A stretch of DNA of 64,000 nt from Gemmatimonadota bacterium (GTDB taxonomy: Bacteria; Gemmatimonadota; Gemmatimonadetes; Gemmatimonadales; Gemmatimonadaceae): NCBI GenBank assembly GCA_026387935.1, contig JAPLKU010000012.1, positions 124,001 to 188,000 of the forward strand, written 5' to 3'. A model generated the notes under the pieces. It was given only the letters and a program-made list of their open reading frames with translations. It was not told where the DNA came from and did not search any database. Below are positions 1,621 through 16,822 of the stretch, piece after piece (the first letter of the stretch is position 1; every line of letters begins with the position of its first letter). Made by a program: the position numbers and the translations under genes.

Positions 1621-4077
1621 CTAGTACTGGGAACCGCTGGTGCTGCCGTCCATCGGAACGCGCTTTGACAAGAACGCATCGCTCTTCACGATGCCGTACA
1701 CAAAGTCCGTGAACTTGTAGCCGCTTGGGGCCGCGTCGCGCACGATGCGGCGAATCGCCGGCCCGTCGTAGGACTCCACGCGGCGGCCGAGTGCGTACGC
1801 CATCAGGTTTTCTGTCAGGGTGCGGAGCAGAGGCGTGGGGCGATTGAGCAGCGCCTTTTGCAACTCCGCCGGGCTCGAGACCGGCGAGCCGTCGTAGTAT
1901 GTGCCGTGCGTATCGAGATCCACATTGTTCTCACGAATACGCCACTGGCCCGTTACGTCGAAGTTGTCGAGGGCGAGGCCGATAGGATCCATGAACATGT
2001 GGCACGACCGGCACGCGGGATTGGCGCGGTGGATTTCCATCCGTTCGCGAGTCGTGAGCAGGCGACCGTCCTTGTTGCCCTTGGTATCCTCGAGATCAGG
2101 AACGTTCGGTGGCGGCGGCGGTGGCGGCGATCCAATGAGGACCTCCATCACCCATTTGCCGCGAAGCACCGGCGACGTCCGATTCGCATGCGACGTCAGC
2201 GTCAGGACGCTTGCATGGCCGAGAAGTCCCGACCGGCGGTTGTCGGGGTAGGCGACGCGCCGGAAGTGCGACCCGGTGACGCCAGTAAACCCATAGTGCT
2301 TCGCGAGTTCTTCGTTCACGAACGTGTAGTTCGCGCGGTACAGGTCGAGCGCGCTGCGGTTCTCGTGAACGATGCTGTAAAAAAACAGTTCCGTTTCGCG
2401 GCGCATGGCATCGGCCAGCTGCTCGTGGAAGTCCGGGAACTGGTTGGCGTCGGGATGGACTTTGTCGATGTCCTGCAGGCGCAACCACTGCGCGGCGAAC
2501 CGCGTGGCCAGTGCCTCGGAACGCGGATCGGCGAGCATCCGCTGCGCCTGGGCCTTGATGGTGGCCGGGTTCGAGAGGCTACCGGTGCGCGCCACCGCCA
2601 TCAACTGCGCGTCGGGAGGCGTACCCCAGAGAAAGAACGAGAGGCGCGAGGCGATGTCAATGTCGGCGATCGCGACCTTCTGCCCAGCCTTCGCGCCGAC
2701 CGGAACTTCTTCCGTCCGGAACATGAAGTGCGGGCTCGCAAGCAGCGCTTCGAGCGCGGTGCGCACGCCAATCTCGAATCCGCCGTCCTTGGCGCCCTGG
2801 TCGTAGAAGCCCAGCATCGGCTGAAGGTCGCGGCCCGTGAGGGGCCGGCGATACGCCACCTTGCCGAGCGCATTGATGATCTTCTCGGCGCAGGGCCGCT
2901 GTTCCGCCTTTGACATGGGGCGGCAAATGAAAATCCGCTTTCGACTCGGCGTATCCGACACGCCCGTTGGGTTGAATGGGCCAGTGACGGTGAGGTCGCG
3001 CAGGTGTGCGAACACGGTCACACCATTCTGCGATCCGATCTGCGTGTCGGCGAGACTGTGCCCCAGCGGAGCGACGAGGTCGTTGAACGGGCCATCAATC
3101 GTCTGCAGGAATGCGGCAGTGATACGCTGCGGGCCCGCGCGCACCGGAATGGCGACCGTCTTCAAGTCCATGCCGTTGGCATCGGCCTGCGACATGCCGC
3201 GGTCCACATCAATCACGGCAACACGCTCGCCATTCACGGAGACTTCAATCTTCTCGTCGAACGGCGCCGTAGAGGCAAAGAGCTGGCCCGTCGGAATCGC
3301 GTGCAACGCCACGGTGAACACGTATTCGCCGTCGGCAGGGAAGTTGTGCACCACGGATACGCCGCCGCGCGTGCCGAGCGGCGCGCCGTCCATACGCTCC
3401 CACTGCGACGCGAGGCGCGGGACGTTGTACGTGATGGACACCTTGCTCGCATGCGCATCACCGACGGCAAGTCGGCTGATTTCACTCGCGGCATCGAGGT
3501 ACGCGTCCAGCGTGGTGGCCGACGGGAGCTGCACATCGGCGACGTTGTCGAAATTTGCGCTCTTCGTATCGAGCGGGAGCCACTTGCCGGGATCCACGTC
3601 GAGGTCGAGGATCTCTTTGATGGATCGCTGGTATTCGACGCGGTTCAGGCGCTGAAAAGTCCGGCTGCCGGGATCGGGGCGGACGGCCGCCGCAGCGTCG
3701 AGGGTTCGCTCGAGCGCAGTGGCCAAGGCCATAAGCGTGTCTTCAGCCGGGCGTTTCTGGCCCGGGGGCGGCATCATGCCGGCCTGGAGCTTGCGAATGA
3801 TTTTTTCGGAAACGTCGGCATTCTGCGCGGCCTTGGCGACGTCGTACGTCTCGAGCGAGAGTTCGCCCATCCGCCGTTTGTCGCTGTGACAGGTGCCGCA
3901 CGACTTGCGAACAAGCACCGTGAGCTCGGGCGCACTGACCGTGAGCGCCGGCTTCTTGCCTTCATGCCGGATGCCCGGTGAGCGTGGCCGAGGCGCGGGA
4001 ATGCCGCCGTCGCCCGCTGCCGACCCGGCGAGGGTGAGGATGCCGCCAGAAGCCAACAGCGCGACGAAAAGCTTCAT
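1621..4077 (-). CDS. Exported c-type cytochrome / DUF1592 multidomain protein
   Basis: 818 aa from the ATG (MKLFVALLAS), which begins a clear Sec signal peptide; a TTG two codons upstream is possible but less likely. CGTCH at residues 60-64 is a covalent haem c site. The remainder matches the planctomycete-type DUF1587, DUF1595, DUF1592, DUF1588 and DUF1585 order: RTFQRLNRVEYQRSI near residue 140, RLSFFLWGTPPD mid-protein, CRSCHMFMDPIGLALDNFD and LTENLMAYALGRRVE near the end. The second CxxCH (CRSCH) belongs to the DUF1588 region and may also bind haem. The protein is predicted periplasmic and redox-active; its substrate is unknown. It is first in the minus-strand set with DUF1552 and the ankyrin protein. 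Confidence 0.9.
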   Translation of the reverse strand: MKLFVALLASGGILTLAGSAAGDGGIPAPRPRSPGIRHEGKKPALTVSAPELTVLVRKSCGTCHSDKRRMGELSLETYDVAKAAQNADVSEKIIRKLQAGMMPPPGQKRPAEDTLMALATALERTLDAAAAVRPDPGSRTFQRLNRVEYQRSIKEILDLDVDPGKWLPLDTKSANFDNVADVQLPSATTLDAYLDAASEISRLAVGDAHASKVSITYNVPRLASQWERMDGAPLGTRGGVSVVHNFPADGEYVFTVALHAIPTGQLFASTAPFDEKIEVSVNGERVAVIDVDRGMSQADANGMDLKTVAIPVRAGPQRITAAFLQTIDGPFNDLVAPLGHSLADTQIGSQNGVTVFAHLRDLTVTGPFNPTGVSDTPSRKRIFICRPMSKAEQRPCAEKIINALGKVAYRRPLTGRDLQPMLGFYDQGAKDGGFEIGVRTALEALLASPHFMFRTEEVPVGAKAGQKVAIADIDIASRLSFFLWGTPPDAQLMAVARTGSLSNPATIKAQAQRMLADPRSEALATRFAAQWLRLQDIDKVHPDANQFPDFHEQLADAMRRETELFFYSIVHENRSALDLYRANYTFVNEELAKHYGFTGVTGSHFRRVAYPDNRRSGLLGHASVLTLTSHANRTSPVLRGKWVMEVLIGSPPPPPPPNVPDLEDTKGNKDGRLLTTRERMEIHRANPACRSCHMFMDPIGLALDNFDVTGQWRIRENNVDLDTHGTYYDGSPVSSPAELQKALLNRPTPLLRTLTENLMAYALGRRVESYDGPAIRRIVRDAAPSGYKFTDFVYGIVKSDAFLSKRVPMDGSTSGSQY

Positions 4078-4160
4078 GCCCAATACTCCGAGTGAAATCG
4101 CACGGCGGTCAGCCCACGAGATGGCAGGCTGCCCCTATAGTTGTCAGTCAGAAAAGGCTT

Positions 4161-13742: not shown

Positions 13743-13928
13743 ATGGAACGCCCGGAAAACGATACGCGGGTCATGGTCACCTCTGGTGGCACCTACTGCC
13801 TCTTTGATAACGGCGGACGACTCGTGGGCACCATCGATCATCCCGTTGAACGCCAGCCGCTAGGCCCTGGCCGCGACACGGTGTACCTCGCCCGCCCGAA
13901 CGACGCCAAGGCTCCGGCGGCCGCGTAG
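13743..13928 (+). CDS. Small hypothetical protein, 61 aa
   Basis: From the ATG the product is 61 aa (MERPENDTRVMVTSGGTYCL at the start); a TTG 17 codons earlier would lie in a hairpin and is less likely. I do not recognise a family. The sequence looks like a small beta-rich protein (MVTSGGTYCLFDNGGRLVG) with a Pro/Ala tail and plausible GC-rich codon use. It lies alone between the tRNAs and the GT87 gene. A 7-bp inverted repeat (CAGTGAA/TTCACTG, 13714-13741) ends one base before the ATG. It may not be real. Confidence 0.45.
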   Translation: MERPENDTRVMVTSGGTYCLFDNGGRLVGTIDHPVERQPLGPGRDTVYLARPNDAKAPAAA

Positions 13929-14022: not shown

Positions 14023-15264
14023 ATGACGCATCCTCCCACGCCATCGGCTTTGCGAGCGCCTGAATCCCGGCGCGCACTGCAGATCATCCTCGGCGTGTAC
14101 GTCGCGACGGCCATCGCGGTGGCTGTGCAGCGTACGATGCTCTCGCGCGAAAACAACTTCTGGATCTTTCGCGCGGCCTTTGCGCATTTGCGCGCGGGTT
14201 CGGACTTGTACGCGGCCTATCCAGACGTGCACGCGGACTTCTTCAAGTACAGCCCCACCTTCGCGCTGCTTTTTGGGCCGTTCGCGGTGTTGCCGCCGAC
14301 CATCGGCTATGCGCTCTGGGCGACGGTCTCTGCCGTCGCGGTCTGGTACGGTGTCGCGCGGCTACTTCCCGGACGCGCGGCCGTGATGACCTTGGCCATC
14401 GCGTGGATCGCAGTCGTGGGTGACCTCCAGCGCGCGCAGAGCAATGCGCTCGTCGCGGGCCTTATGATCATCGCCTGGGTGGGCTACGAGCGGGGCAAGC
14501 AGCTGCCAGCGGCGATGGCCGTTGCGGCGGGCGGATTCGTCAAGCTCTTTCCCCTCGCGGCGGGAATGGGCGCTCTGCTCCACCGTCGGTGGCTGCGCTT
14601 TTGCCTGAGTCTCGTTGCGGTTCTCGCAATTGGCGCCGCGCTGCCGCTGGTGGCTGCCGGCCCGGATTCGATTGCCGCGCAGTACCGCTCGTGGTACGCC
14701 CTCGAGACGCGCGACGCCGCACCAATGCCGCGATATGGCACAGGTGGCGCGGATCTCTACGCCGGGCTCATGGGGCAGTTTCGTGTCTGGTTCGGCGTGG
14801 ACTGGCCGCACTGGCCGGTGCAACTCGCCGGACTCGTGATCCTGCTGCTGCCGTTGCTCACCCAGCGCAATCGATTCGGCGAGCGCCTCTTTCGCATTCA
14901 GCTGCTCGCGAGCCTGCTCGTGTTCTGTGTGCTCTTCAATCACCAGGCCGAGTCGCCGTCCTACGTGATCGCGATCATCGGCGCAGCCATCTGGTTTGCC
15001 GCGTCCCAGCCGGCGCGCTGGCGTACGGCGCTCATCGTCGCGTGCATCGCCATCGTGAACCTGATGTCCACCGACCTGATGCCGCGCGCCTGGTATCGCG
15101 AGTACTACGTCCCGTACCTGCTGAAGACCATTCCGCTGATCCCACTCTGGATTCTCATGCAGTTCGAGCTGCATGGCATCGTGCAGAATCGCGGCTCGTC
15201 AGAGCTGATCGAAGCGGGCGAGGACGATGTCGCCTTCGCGGACCCGATCTCGCACGGCGGCTGA
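14023..15264 (+). CDS. GT87-family (DUF2029) polyprenyl-phosphate-sugar glycosyltransferase, membrane
   Basis: 413 aa from the ATG MTHPPTPSALR; a TTG three codons earlier is unlikely. The protein is polytopic with about ten hydrophobic segments, from LQIILGVYVATAIAVAV to LIPLWILMQFELHG. An early soluble loop with DLYAAYPDVHADFFKYSP matches the GT87/DUF2029 GT-C fold, where an acidic motif near the first loop is catalytic. Family members use polyprenyl-phosphate sugars as donors at the outer face of the inner membrane. Its last 66 bases overlap the convergent YdjC-family gene, which suggests a shared function with that gene and the adjacent GT2. Confidence 0.85.
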   Translation: MTHPPTPSALRAPESRRALQIILGVYVATAIAVAVQRTMLSRENNFWIFRAAFAHLRAGSDLYAAYPDVHADFFKYSPTFALLFGPFAVLPPTIGYALWATVSAVAVWYGVARLLPGRAAVMTLAIAWIAVVGDLQRAQSNALVAGLMIIAWVGYERGKQLPAAMAVAAGGFVKLFPLAAGMGALLHRRWLRFCLSLVAVLAIGAALPLVAAGPDSIAAQYRSWYALETRDAAPMPRYGTGGADLYAGLMGQFRVWFGVDWPHWPVQLAGLVILLLPLLTQRNRFGERLFRIQLLASLLVFCVLFNHQAESPSYVIAIIGAAIWFAASQPARWRTALIVACIAIVNLMSTDLMPRAWYREYYVPYLLKTIPLIPLWILMQFELHGIVQNRGSSELIEAGEDDVAFADPISHGG

Positions 15265-16065
15265 CGTCAGCGCGGCCAGTTCGCGTTCGCGTTGCCAGGT
15301 GTAGCCATCCACAGAGCGGAGCGCATCGTCCACGCGGCCCGGGTGGACCATCAACTCCACTGTGCCAGACGGCAGCGCAGCGAGCACCTGCGTGAGTTGC
15401 GCCTCGAATCGCTCGCCGCCTTGCATCGATACGCCGATGAAATGGTTCGGCGCGATCGTGGCCGCCGCGCCTACCGACGTCACCCGCCACGACCAGGCGA
15501 TGACGCCACGGTGCACCTGCGACGCGATGTCGTTTGGGAATCGGCGGTGTGATTCGACGGGCCGCCGCAGCGGAAGTTTCCGCGCCGCAGCCACCCGTGC
15601 CACCGCACCGCGCACTATGGGTAGCGCATGGGTGTGCCGATGCGAATCGATGTGCGTCAGCCGCACACCGCTGCCTTCGATCGCCGCGATCTGCGCCTCG
15701 GCTTCGGCTTCAACCTCCGCGCCGTCGAGCCGGCCCGTCAGCGCGCGCCGCACGAGCGCCGCGAGCGAGAGGAACTTGCCGGTGCGCCGGTCTACCATGG
15801 TCACTCCCGCGACGATCGGCGCGCCGACCAAGAGGTTCAAATGCAGTCCAACACCGAGCGTCGGTGCCGTTTTGACCGCGCGCGTTGCGTCGTCCCAGCC
15901 GGGGCAGTGCACCATCATCGACGTCGATGTGACGGTACCGGCCTCGTGCGCCTCGAGAATGCCTGCGCTCACCGCGGGTGAGATGCCGAAGTCGTCGGCG
16001 TTGATCACGAGCCGCGTACGTGCACCAGACGGCGTGATCGGCCTCCCGCTCGCCGGAACGGTCAC
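15199..16065 (-). CDS. YdjC/ChbG-family carbohydrate deacetylase
   Basis: 288 aa. The metal-dependent deacetylase motifs of the YdjC fold are present: RLVINADDFG (Asp-Asp, residues about 18-27), VGLHLNLL, and THIDSHRHTH (His ligands). A late MVHPGR block supplies a further His. Family members remove N-acetyl groups from sugars: ChbG acts on chitooligosaccharides, HpnK on hopanoid sugar and Francisella NaxD on undecaprenyl-phosphate-GalNAc. The start is one base after the GT2 stop, so the two form an operon. With a GT87 gene convergent next to it, a lipid-linked sugar substrate is more likely than chitin. Confidence 0.87.
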   Translation of the reverse strand: MTVPASGRPITPSGARTRLVINADDFGISPAVSAGILEAHEAGTVTSTSMMVHCPGWDDATRAVKTAPTLGVGLHLNLLVGAPIVAGVTMVDRRTGKFLSLAALVRRALTGRLDGAEVEAEAEAQIAAIEGSGVRLTHIDSHRHTHALPIVRGAVARVAAARKLPLRRPVESHRRFPNDIASQVHRGVIAWSWRVTSVGAAATIAPNHFIGVSMQGGERFEAQLTQVLAALPSGTVELMVHPGRVDDALRSVDGYTWQRERELAALTSAAVRDRVREGDIVLARFDQL

Positions 16066-16066
16066 G

Positions 16067-16822
16067 TCAGCGGTACCGGCCGCGCAGGTGGTTCACCCGC
16101 ACGTGCAGAAGGTCCGCCATCATCCGAAACACGCTCTGCGTGAACGTGATCGTCGTCGGCTCTTCGTCGTAGCGGAAGTGCACGGCAGTCTGCTTGACCC
16201 GAAAGCCGTGAAGCTGGGCGATGAACAACGATTCGACGTCGAACCCGAATCGCGGAATGGTGAGCCGAGGGAATACCACCGCCGCAGCCTTGGCGGTGAA
16301 TCCCTTCAACCCGGCCTGCGTGTCGAGGATGTCGCGCAGCAGCACCGCACGCACCATCAGGTTGAACACCCGGCTCATCACATGGCGCGTGTACAGATAG
16401 TGAAAGAACGACGGGCTCATCAGGTAGCGGGACTCTGGCAGCACGCGGCACGCAATCGCCACATCGGCGCCAGCTTCGAGATCGCCGAGAATCTTGCTAA
16501 TCTCTGCCGGCGGATAGGCGAGGTCAGCGTCGGTGAACACGCGAAAGTCCCCCGTTGCCGCCAGAAAGCCCTTCGCCACGCCGGTACCCTTGCCGAGATT
16601 GGTCTCGTTCCGGATCACGCGCGTGTTTGGGCGACTCGCCGCAAAGTCGGCGAGCACTTTTTGGGCAGGCGCGCGGCTGTGATCATCCACCAGAATCAGC
16701 TCGGTGGAGTAGGGAACGGAGTCGAGCCAGCGCCCCAGCTCCGCGAGCGCACCGGGAAGCCGGTCCTCGCCATTGTACGCTGGAACAATGACTGACAAAT
16801 GGGGTGTTCTGGAGGTTTCCAT
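16067..16822 (-). CDS. Family 2 glycosyltransferase, polyprenyl/dolichyl-phosphate sugar synthase type
   Basis: 251 aa from the ATG of METSRTPHLSVIVPAYN; 75 upstream in-frame codons have no GT2 character. Motifs: VIVPAYNGEDRL at the N-terminus, LILVDDHS, NLGKGTGVAKGFLAA, metal-binding FTDADLAYPP, and DTQAGLKGF followed by RFGFDVESLF. This pattern is typical of ALG5/DPM1-type synthases that charge polyprenyl phosphate with a sugar. There is no C-terminal membrane domain, so it is peripheral. It is first in a two-gene minus operon with the YdjC-like deacetylase. Confidence 0.88.
   Translation of the reverse strand: METSRTPHLSVIVPAYNGEDRLPGALAELGRWLDSVPYSTELILVDDHSRAPAQKVLADFAASRPNTRVIRNETNLGKGTGVAKGFLAATGDFRVFTDADLAYPPAEISKILGDLEAGADVAIACRVLPESRYLMSPSFFHYLYTRHVMSRVFNLMVRAVLLRDILDTQAGLKGFTAKAAAVVFPRLTIPRFGFDVESLFIAQLHGFRVKQTAVHFRYDEEPTTITFTQSVFRMMADLLHVRVNHLRGRYR

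Follow-up and report, generated by a model that had tools for sequence, protein, structure and literature searches.

An amino sugar on an envelope molecule renders that molecule more positive and is a known bacterial route to cationic peptide resistance. In the ArnC-ArnD-ArnT pathway, which places Ara4N on lipid A, a GT2 glycosyltransferase, an N-deacylase and a GT-C transferase follow the same logic as the gene trio described here, which differs in having a GT87 enzyme for ArnT and in a sugar that is probably a hexosamine. The Francisella FlmF2-NaxD-FlmK system resembles the trio in its combination of a GT2, a deacetylase of the YdjC family (NaxD) and a membrane transferase; FlmK is, however, ArnT-like where our locus has GT87, and GT2s of the ArnC/FlmF2 type have C-terminal membrane helices, whereas the GT2 studied here appears to be soluble. 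FlmK is reported to transfer galactosamine from C55-P-galactosamine to the 1-phosphate of lipid A (PMC6581854). For mycobacteria, two papers describe the synthesis of polyprenyl-phosphate GalNAc, which then loses its acetyl group before the sugar passes to the wall, a succession like the one proposed below for the trio; the acceptor of the PpgS-Rv3779 system is arabinogalactan, the deacetylase is the missing part, and neither a YdjC nor a CE4 partner is named there (PMC9671496, PMC5964476). For Acinetobacter, the missing part is reported to be the enzymes attaching the sugar after NaxD (PMC9431647). HpnI-HpnK, which serves hopanoid glucosamine, likewise pairs a GT2 with a YdjC-family deacetylase but differs from our locus in the type of its GT2. 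Our literature searches returned nothing on GT87 together with YdjC or with a polysaccharide deacetylase, nor on a GT87/deacetylase/glycosyltransferase operon, which does not prove absence in print.

The three genes and their products

The locus lies in a 64,000-nucleotide stretch of Gemmatimonadota DNA, which we call the window. Its features are as follows.

14023..15264, plus strand: GT87 polytopic GT-C transferase, 413 aa, proposed amino-sugar transferase (PF09594, 71.5 bits)
14152..14157, plus strand: GT87 codons N44-N45; N45 occupies the column of the PimE catalytic Asp58
14950..14952, plus strand: GT87 codon E310, clade-invariant acid in the alignment (46/46), candidate replacement base
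15199..15264, no strand assigned: 66 bases shared in antiparallel orientation by the 3' ends of GT87 and YdjC, from the gene coordinates
15199..16065, minus strand: YdjC-family deacetylase, 288 aa, proposed to be cytosolic with a lipid-linked HexNAc as substrate (PF04794, 204 bits)
16067..16822, minus strand: ALG5/DPM1-like GT2, predicted soluble, 251 aa, proposed polyprenyl-phosphate sugar synthase (PF00535, 88.5 bits)

Open reading frames and Pfam matches (cut-offs 25, 29.7 and 23.3 bits for GT87, YdjC and GT2, respectively) confirmed the coordinates, strands, families, 66-base overlap and one-base gap given in an earlier note on this DNA. The GT87 frame runs from an ATG at 14023 to a stop ending at 15264 and the GT2 frame from an ATG at 16822 to 16067, separated from YdjC by the single base 16066. 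It is uncertain whether the GTG is the true start of YdjC, as homology with its relatives sets in near residue 14-17. The overlap between GT87 and YdjC is not peculiar to the window genome, because 36 of the 42 convergent pairs examined have 3' overlaps (28/32 distinct genomes once ten rows repeating a genome are taken out), commonly of 57, 63, 66 or 71 bases.

Residues D46, D47, D98 and D100 of the GT2 and its QAGLK stretch are invariant across 19 sequences. The closest PDB match is dolichol monophosphate mannose synthase (5mlz, E 1.8e-14), no hydrophobic helix was found in the window GT2, and the ArnC model covers only residues 8-126 with 50.7 bits of a cut-off of 529. Judged from its sequence, the protein is a soluble ALG5/DPM1-like enzyme rather than one of the membrane ArnC type.

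The deacetylase has D24, D25, H75, H142, H144, H146 and H241 invariant across 20 sequences, and its predicted structure (pLDDT 91.1) is nearest to ChbG (7vi8, Z 32.0) and EF3048 (2i5i, Z 31.7) among solved structures. The top NCBIfam model is chitin disaccharide deacetylase at 171.4 bits, under the cut-off of 227; the HpnK model scores 137.5 bits, under 232.6. In two trees the window clade stands apart from the HpnK and the three ChbG-type references, and the clustering with ChbG that the earlier note had named as evidence against its pathway was thus not found. In the first tree (95 rows; 15 of 80 genome-contig rows left out as fragments, mostly from Bacilli and Clostridia) the window protein falls outside the branch holding the HpnK reference. 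In the second (109 rows, by a quick method, with the 15 fragments restored and the long row L229 omitted) the trio clade remains a single group (SH-aLRT 95); of the restored rows, 13 group with the ChbG references and two, from Paenibacillus, stand apart. In both trees the trio label covers 20 rows, including one whose GT87 lies elsewhere (L020) and one without a trio-type GT2 (L027). A plasmid search with YdjC (15 records) gave no NaxD-annotated match.

GT87 was the only Pfam family found for the window transferase, which did not match an ArnT-like family, and its gene is the sole GT87 match within the source genome. The top fold match of the predicted structure (pLDDT 81.9) is PimE (9dm5, Z 25.4, 4.5 A, 350 aligned residues), an enzyme whose donor is polyprenyl-phosphate mannose. 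Further transferases with lipid-phosphate sugar donors follow, among them ALG3, ALG6, PMTs and ArnT, the last a weaker match (5f15, Z 12.4, 4.5 A, 266 aligned). A single-sequence search with GT87 gave no hit to PimE, which was recovered by a profile search. The window enzyme shares with PimE and the actinobacterial GT87s the Pfam family, the fold and the donor-phosphate residues: Y92, Q163 and K195 of PimE correspond to Y76, Q139 and K174, of which the first and last occur in 46/46 and Q139 in 44/46 rows of a Gemmatimonadota-Bacteroidota GT87 alignment. It differs from them at the canonical GT-C catalytic aspartate, Asp58 at the tip of the first juxtamembrane helix in PimE, where the window protein has Asn45 (42 of 46 rows have N, three D and one V), and in two extra acids of the Gemmatimonadota-Bacteroidota clade, namely E310, whose column is a gap in 6/6 actinobacterial GT87s, and D72, present in 44/46 rows. 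Since D58N renders PimE inactive (PMC12041525), it is not safe to assume that GT87 is active, and the suggestion in the earlier note that all three enzymes look active is not supported for this one. The alignment points to a catalytic base that has been relocated, or to a chemistry different from that of PimE; how GT87 activates its acceptor is thus a mechanistic question raised by the missing aspartate.

Occurrence in Gemmatimonadota and a counterpart in Bacteroidota

Among 395 Gemmatimonadota genomes (counts not corrected for relatedness), 49 carry the GT2, 51 YdjC and 63 GT87; GT2 scores are bimodal, with values of at least 362 bits or at most 186 bits. The co-conservation in related genomes for which the earlier note had proposed to look is borne out: YdjC lies directly downstream of the GT2 on the same strand in all 49 GT2 genomes, and all 51 YdjC genomes have GT87, adjacent in 43 (42 convergent, and one collinear, G036). 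In the other eight the two are apart, in G008 at a contig break, and in G037, G041, G067, G074, G364 and G369 GT87 is located elsewhere; 12 of the 395 genomes have GT87 without YdjC, and two (G074, G283) have YdjC without a trio-type GT2. Of the 17 other genomes in the genus, 16 carry the complete trio and one (G005) lacks it entirely. Outside the genus the flanking genes of the trio vary, and plain synteny is therefore rejected as the cause of its co-conservation. Among the best 80 of 537 genome-contig matches, a tight trio was found only at four loci (L036-L039), all from Gemmatimonadota; at four other Gemmatimonadota loci (L178-L181) a GT2 adjoins YdjC but GT87 is absent from the neighbourhood.

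Bacteroidota GT87s belong to the same clade as the window enzyme. In a survey covering 213 Bacteroidota genomes, GT87, a GT2 and a CE4 deacetylase form a tight collinear operon at 8 of 17 places examined, and at one GT87 is fused to a GT2; nine of the 17 lack the combination of GT2 and CE4 beside GT87. No homology was detectable between CE4 and YdjC, and what is kept is therefore the deacetylation step, not the protein. The Bacteroidota operons with CE4 are independent support for an amino-sugar pathway. One Bacteroidota GT2 (L213) scores 138.7 bits against the ArnC model (cut-off 529), in a match that spans its length. A broader proposal, which we find nearly as easy to believe as to doubt, is a modular amino-sugar transfer system common to both phyla, in which two parts would have been exchanged around a constant GT87: the GT2, soluble and ALG5-like in one form and a membrane protein of the ArnC kind in the other, and the deacetylase, either YdjC or CE4. 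The GT87 clade itself would have given up the GT-C catalytic Asp, with its base moved to E310 or D72 or with an acceptor that can do without one, e.g. a phosphate.

Proposed pathway and alternative readings

The trio is probably a cassette for building an amino sugar on polyprenyl phosphate and passing it on. On the cytosolic side, the soluble GT2 would charge polyprenyl phosphate with an N-acetylhexosamine taken from the UDP-bound form, and the co-transcribed YdjC would deacetylate the sugar while it is lipid-bound. A flippase, for which no gene was identified within the cassette, would then turn the sugar-lipid round, and GT87 would hand the free amino sugar to a periplasmic acceptor, perhaps lipid A or the LPS core. 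Each of these chemical steps is inferred, and so are the identity of the sugar (GlcN or GalN) and the side on which the enzymes act; the acceptor is a guess. The pathway outlined in the earlier note thus stands in part, backed by the co-conservation of the genes, the separation of YdjC from ChbG and the Bacteroidota operons, and gives way where it took all enzymes to be active. A cassette with all three functions, found in two phyla with two unrelated deacetylases, provides candidate enzymes and a search rule.

GT2 and YdjC might form the pathway by themselves, with the convergent GT87 merely adjoining and another GT-C enzyme using the amino sugar. GT87 is indeed on the opposite strand in a transcription unit of its own, it lies elsewhere in six genomes and occurs without YdjC in others, and some Gemmatimonadota loci pair GT2 and YdjC with no GT87 nearby. 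We nevertheless regard this as unlikely, given the presence of GT87 in every YdjC genome, mostly adjacent and once collinear, the retained 3' overlap, and the collinear operons and GT87-GT2 fusion of Bacteroidota. Even less probable is a pathway like HpnI-HpnK, in which the GT2 loads GlcNAc onto a membrane lipid other than polyprenyl phosphate, such as a hopanoid or a different glycolipid, and YdjC removes the acetyl group there. The HpnK model does match YdjC, and hpnI and hpnK adjoin in a known hopanoid cluster (L228), but the GT2 is ALG5/DPM1-like, YdjC lies outside the HpnK branch, and squalene-hopene cyclase exceeds the cut-off in only 3 of 119 relatives, none of them trio carriers. With a cyclase score of 22.6 bits, not over the cut-off, a hopanoid role is rejected for the source genome, although a glycolipid of another kind may still be the carrier; no HpnJ was seen beside the window trio. 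A further alternative, in which YdjC deacetylates chitooligosaccharides as ChbG does and has nothing to do with the adjacent genes, would agree with its nearest structures and top NCBIfam model, yet its score under the equivalog cut-off and its separate clade led us to reject this role, and its place directly beside the GT2 of trio type in 49 of the 51 YdjC genomes makes the reading very improbable.

With the cassette as the preferred reading, it is possible, if somewhat doubtful, that the same lipid-linked amino sugar goes to a polysaccharide or protein instead of lipid A or core. LpxC is present in the source genome (303 bits) and in 115 of 119 genomes of the order, near-universal and therefore no pointer to the acceptor. 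GT-C enzymes have many acceptors, and mycobacterial PpgS and Rv3779 are reported to place galactosamine on arabinogalactan (PMC9671496, PMC5964476). Nothing specific speaks against such an acceptor; one Parabacteroides operon, however, has group-1 glycosyltransferases and a Kdo/WaaP-family kinase gene in its neighbourhood.

Conservation of the trio

Three genes carry the reading discussed here, and the description of them in the earlier note, made from sequence alone, was right:

14023-15264, plus strand: GT87, a GT-C membrane transferase
15199-16065, minus strand: YdjC-family deacetylase
16067-16822, minus strand: soluble ALG5/DPM1-like GT2

Only one base separates GT2 from YdjC, and the two genes thus probably form a single transcript. 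GT87 is convergent to them, its 3' end lying 66 bases inside YdjC; pyrR is divergent on the far side of GT2, and two tRNA-Ser genes are located upstream of GT87. Between tRNA-Ser and GT87 there is also a 61-residue reading frame (13743-13928, plus strand), homologues of which (about 50% identity) were found in several genomes of the genus (loci L007, L010, L012, L018, L019). Elsewhere in the window, the minus strand at 1621-4083 encodes a protein with DUF1587, DUF1595, DUF1592, DUF1588 and DUF1585 in a row that also matches Planctomycete cytochrome C weakly. The genome carrying the window is 2.8 Mb in size, and its closest named relatives, among the best 80 of 537 matches, are Gemmatimonadota.

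The proposal that the trio constitutes a polyprenyl-phosphate amino-sugar pathway could be checked by asking whether the genes stay together in relatives, and they do. YdjC and GT87 (E up to 1e-10 each) were each detected in 36 of 119 relatives, as was GT2 (E up to 1e-30; 31 close matches with at least 53% identity and 5 weak ones with 36-38%). All three are present in 16 of the 17 other genomes of the genus, and G005 is without any of them. When 395 phylum genomes were searched, each gene with its own profile, the trio-type GT2 was recovered in 49, YdjC in 51 and GT87 in 63. YdjC lies directly downstream on the same strand for 49/49 GT2 genes, and GT87 is present in 51/51 YdjC genomes, adjoining YdjC in 43 (42 convergent, 1 collinear); in the other eight it is located elsewhere (G037, G041, G067, G074, G364, G369), the locus is split by a contig end (G008) or YdjC is near a contig start (G283). 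GT87 occurs alone in 12 genomes. Fisher values for co-occurrence across the 395 genomes were 1e-60 and 5e-53, a statistic that ignores relatedness. The antiparallel GT87/YdjC overlap is retained in 36 of 42 rows, corresponding to 28 of 32 distinct genomes. Since pyrR, pyrB and tadA were found on the stretch read at none of 22 loci outside the genus with both GT2 and YdjC matches, it is the trio unit that is conserved and not its neighbourhood. The pathway reading has thereby gained strong comparative support, while its chemical steps are putative.

Two local variants were noted. G011 (L156, C22:27033-29737) has a second GT87 copy in tandem with the trio GT87, and in G074 (L163, 8705-13470) YdjC and GT87 are separated by genes on one strand for another GT2, a nucleotidyltransferase and a GDP-mannose dehydratase-like protein, which may form a related sugar pathway.

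GT2, the deacetylase and a Bacteroidota counterpart

No membrane helix is predicted for the window GT2. Among solved structures, dolichol-phosphate mannose synthase is its best match; models for dolichyl-phosphate hexose transferase and for AglJ give near full-length matches, far below cut-off. The predicted YdjC model (pLDDT 91) is closest in fold to ChbG (Z 32.0, 2.1 A, 247 aligned) and EF3048 (Z 31.7, 2.3 A, 249 aligned), and the protein scores below cut-off for both ChbG and HpnK. Clustering with ChbG would have spoken against the pathway; instead, the trio YdjC proteins form a clade of their own, apart from three ChbG-type references in two trees, from the HpnK reference in the first tree, and also from YdjC of L178-L181. 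At these four loci from other Gemmatimonadota, YdjC stands beside a different, membrane-type GT2 (of the ArnC/PgfS kind in L178), with no GT87 on the stretch read, an arrangement closer to that of NaxD. The trio itself would be of the same kind as the Francisella and mycobacterial polyprenyl-phosphate amino-sugar pathways, but a variant.

A counterpart in Bacteroidota lends the pathway reading independent support. In one Parabacteroides distasonis record GT87, GT2 and a CE4 'polysaccharide deacetylase' are consecutive, another (L197, 5944-7842) encodes a natural GT87-GT2 fusion of 632 residues, and a third has GT87 alone. The trio GT87 clade was detected in 12 of 213 genomes of the phylum at 14 places, all of which were read: seven have a collinear GT87-GT2-CE4 operon and seven do not. 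Including the three Parabacteroides places, GT2 and CE4 accompany GT87 at 8/17 and the fusion occurs at 1/17. In each of four genome operons examined (L213, L215, L216, L221), GT2 has two C-terminal helices, and the two compared with PgfS and ArnC (L213, L221) match over the model length, below cut-off; no helix was found in the Parabacteroides GT2. Similarity between CE4 and YdjC was not detectable. That one GT87 clade is accompanied by two kinds of GT2 and by deacetylases of two unrelated types is the strongest argument for deacetylation as a step of the pathway. A GT87 partner with a swappable deacetylase across two phyla looks new; a literature search, with most subscription journals outside its reach, found no mention of the GT87-deacetylase combination. 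The Parabacteroides records (L196-L198) are labelled plasmids and contain the housekeeping genes pheT, hutH and shikimate kinase, and thus look like mislabelled chromosome pieces.

The GT87 active site and the acceptor

The GT87 model (pLDDT 81.9) has PimE as its closest fold (Z 25.4, 4.5 A, 350 aligned), followed by other lipid-phosphate sugar transferases; ArnT gave Z 12.4. In PimE, Asp58 has been proposed as the catalytic base, D58N being inactive, and Y92, Q163 and K195 are likewise essential (PMC12041525). In joint alignments, with PimE numbering anchored via a Nocardia homologue, Asp58 aligns with Asn45 of the window GT87. Asn occupies this column in 42 of 46 Gemmatimonadota and Bacteroidota rows, Asp in three that make up one small clade and Val in one, against Asp in 6/6 actinobacterial rows. 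Of the counterparts of Y92, Q163 and K195, Y76 and K174 are retained in 46/46 and Q139 in 44/46 of the former rows; E310 occurs in 46/46 and D72 in 44/46, and neither is found in the six actinobacterial rows. Because GT87s without a nearby deacetylase have Asn as well, this residue is a mark of the clade, not of an amino sugar. The base may have been relocated, or the acceptor may require none; that the enzymes are inactive would be the least likely explanation in view of the conservation. Lack of the canonical base in a GT87 clade likewise looks new.

LpxC is present in the genome carrying the window and in 115/119 relatives; lipid A can thus be made by the host, yet such wide occurrence does not single it out as the acceptor. 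By analogy with FlmK (PMC6581854), lipid A or core would be our first guess, and a polysaccharide, as in the mycobacterial systems (PMC9671496, PMC5964476), would be almost as likely. Hopanoids are an unlikely acceptor: hopene cyclase exceeds its cut-off in three of the 119 relatives, which are not trio carriers, and its score in the genome carrying the window is 22.6 bits.
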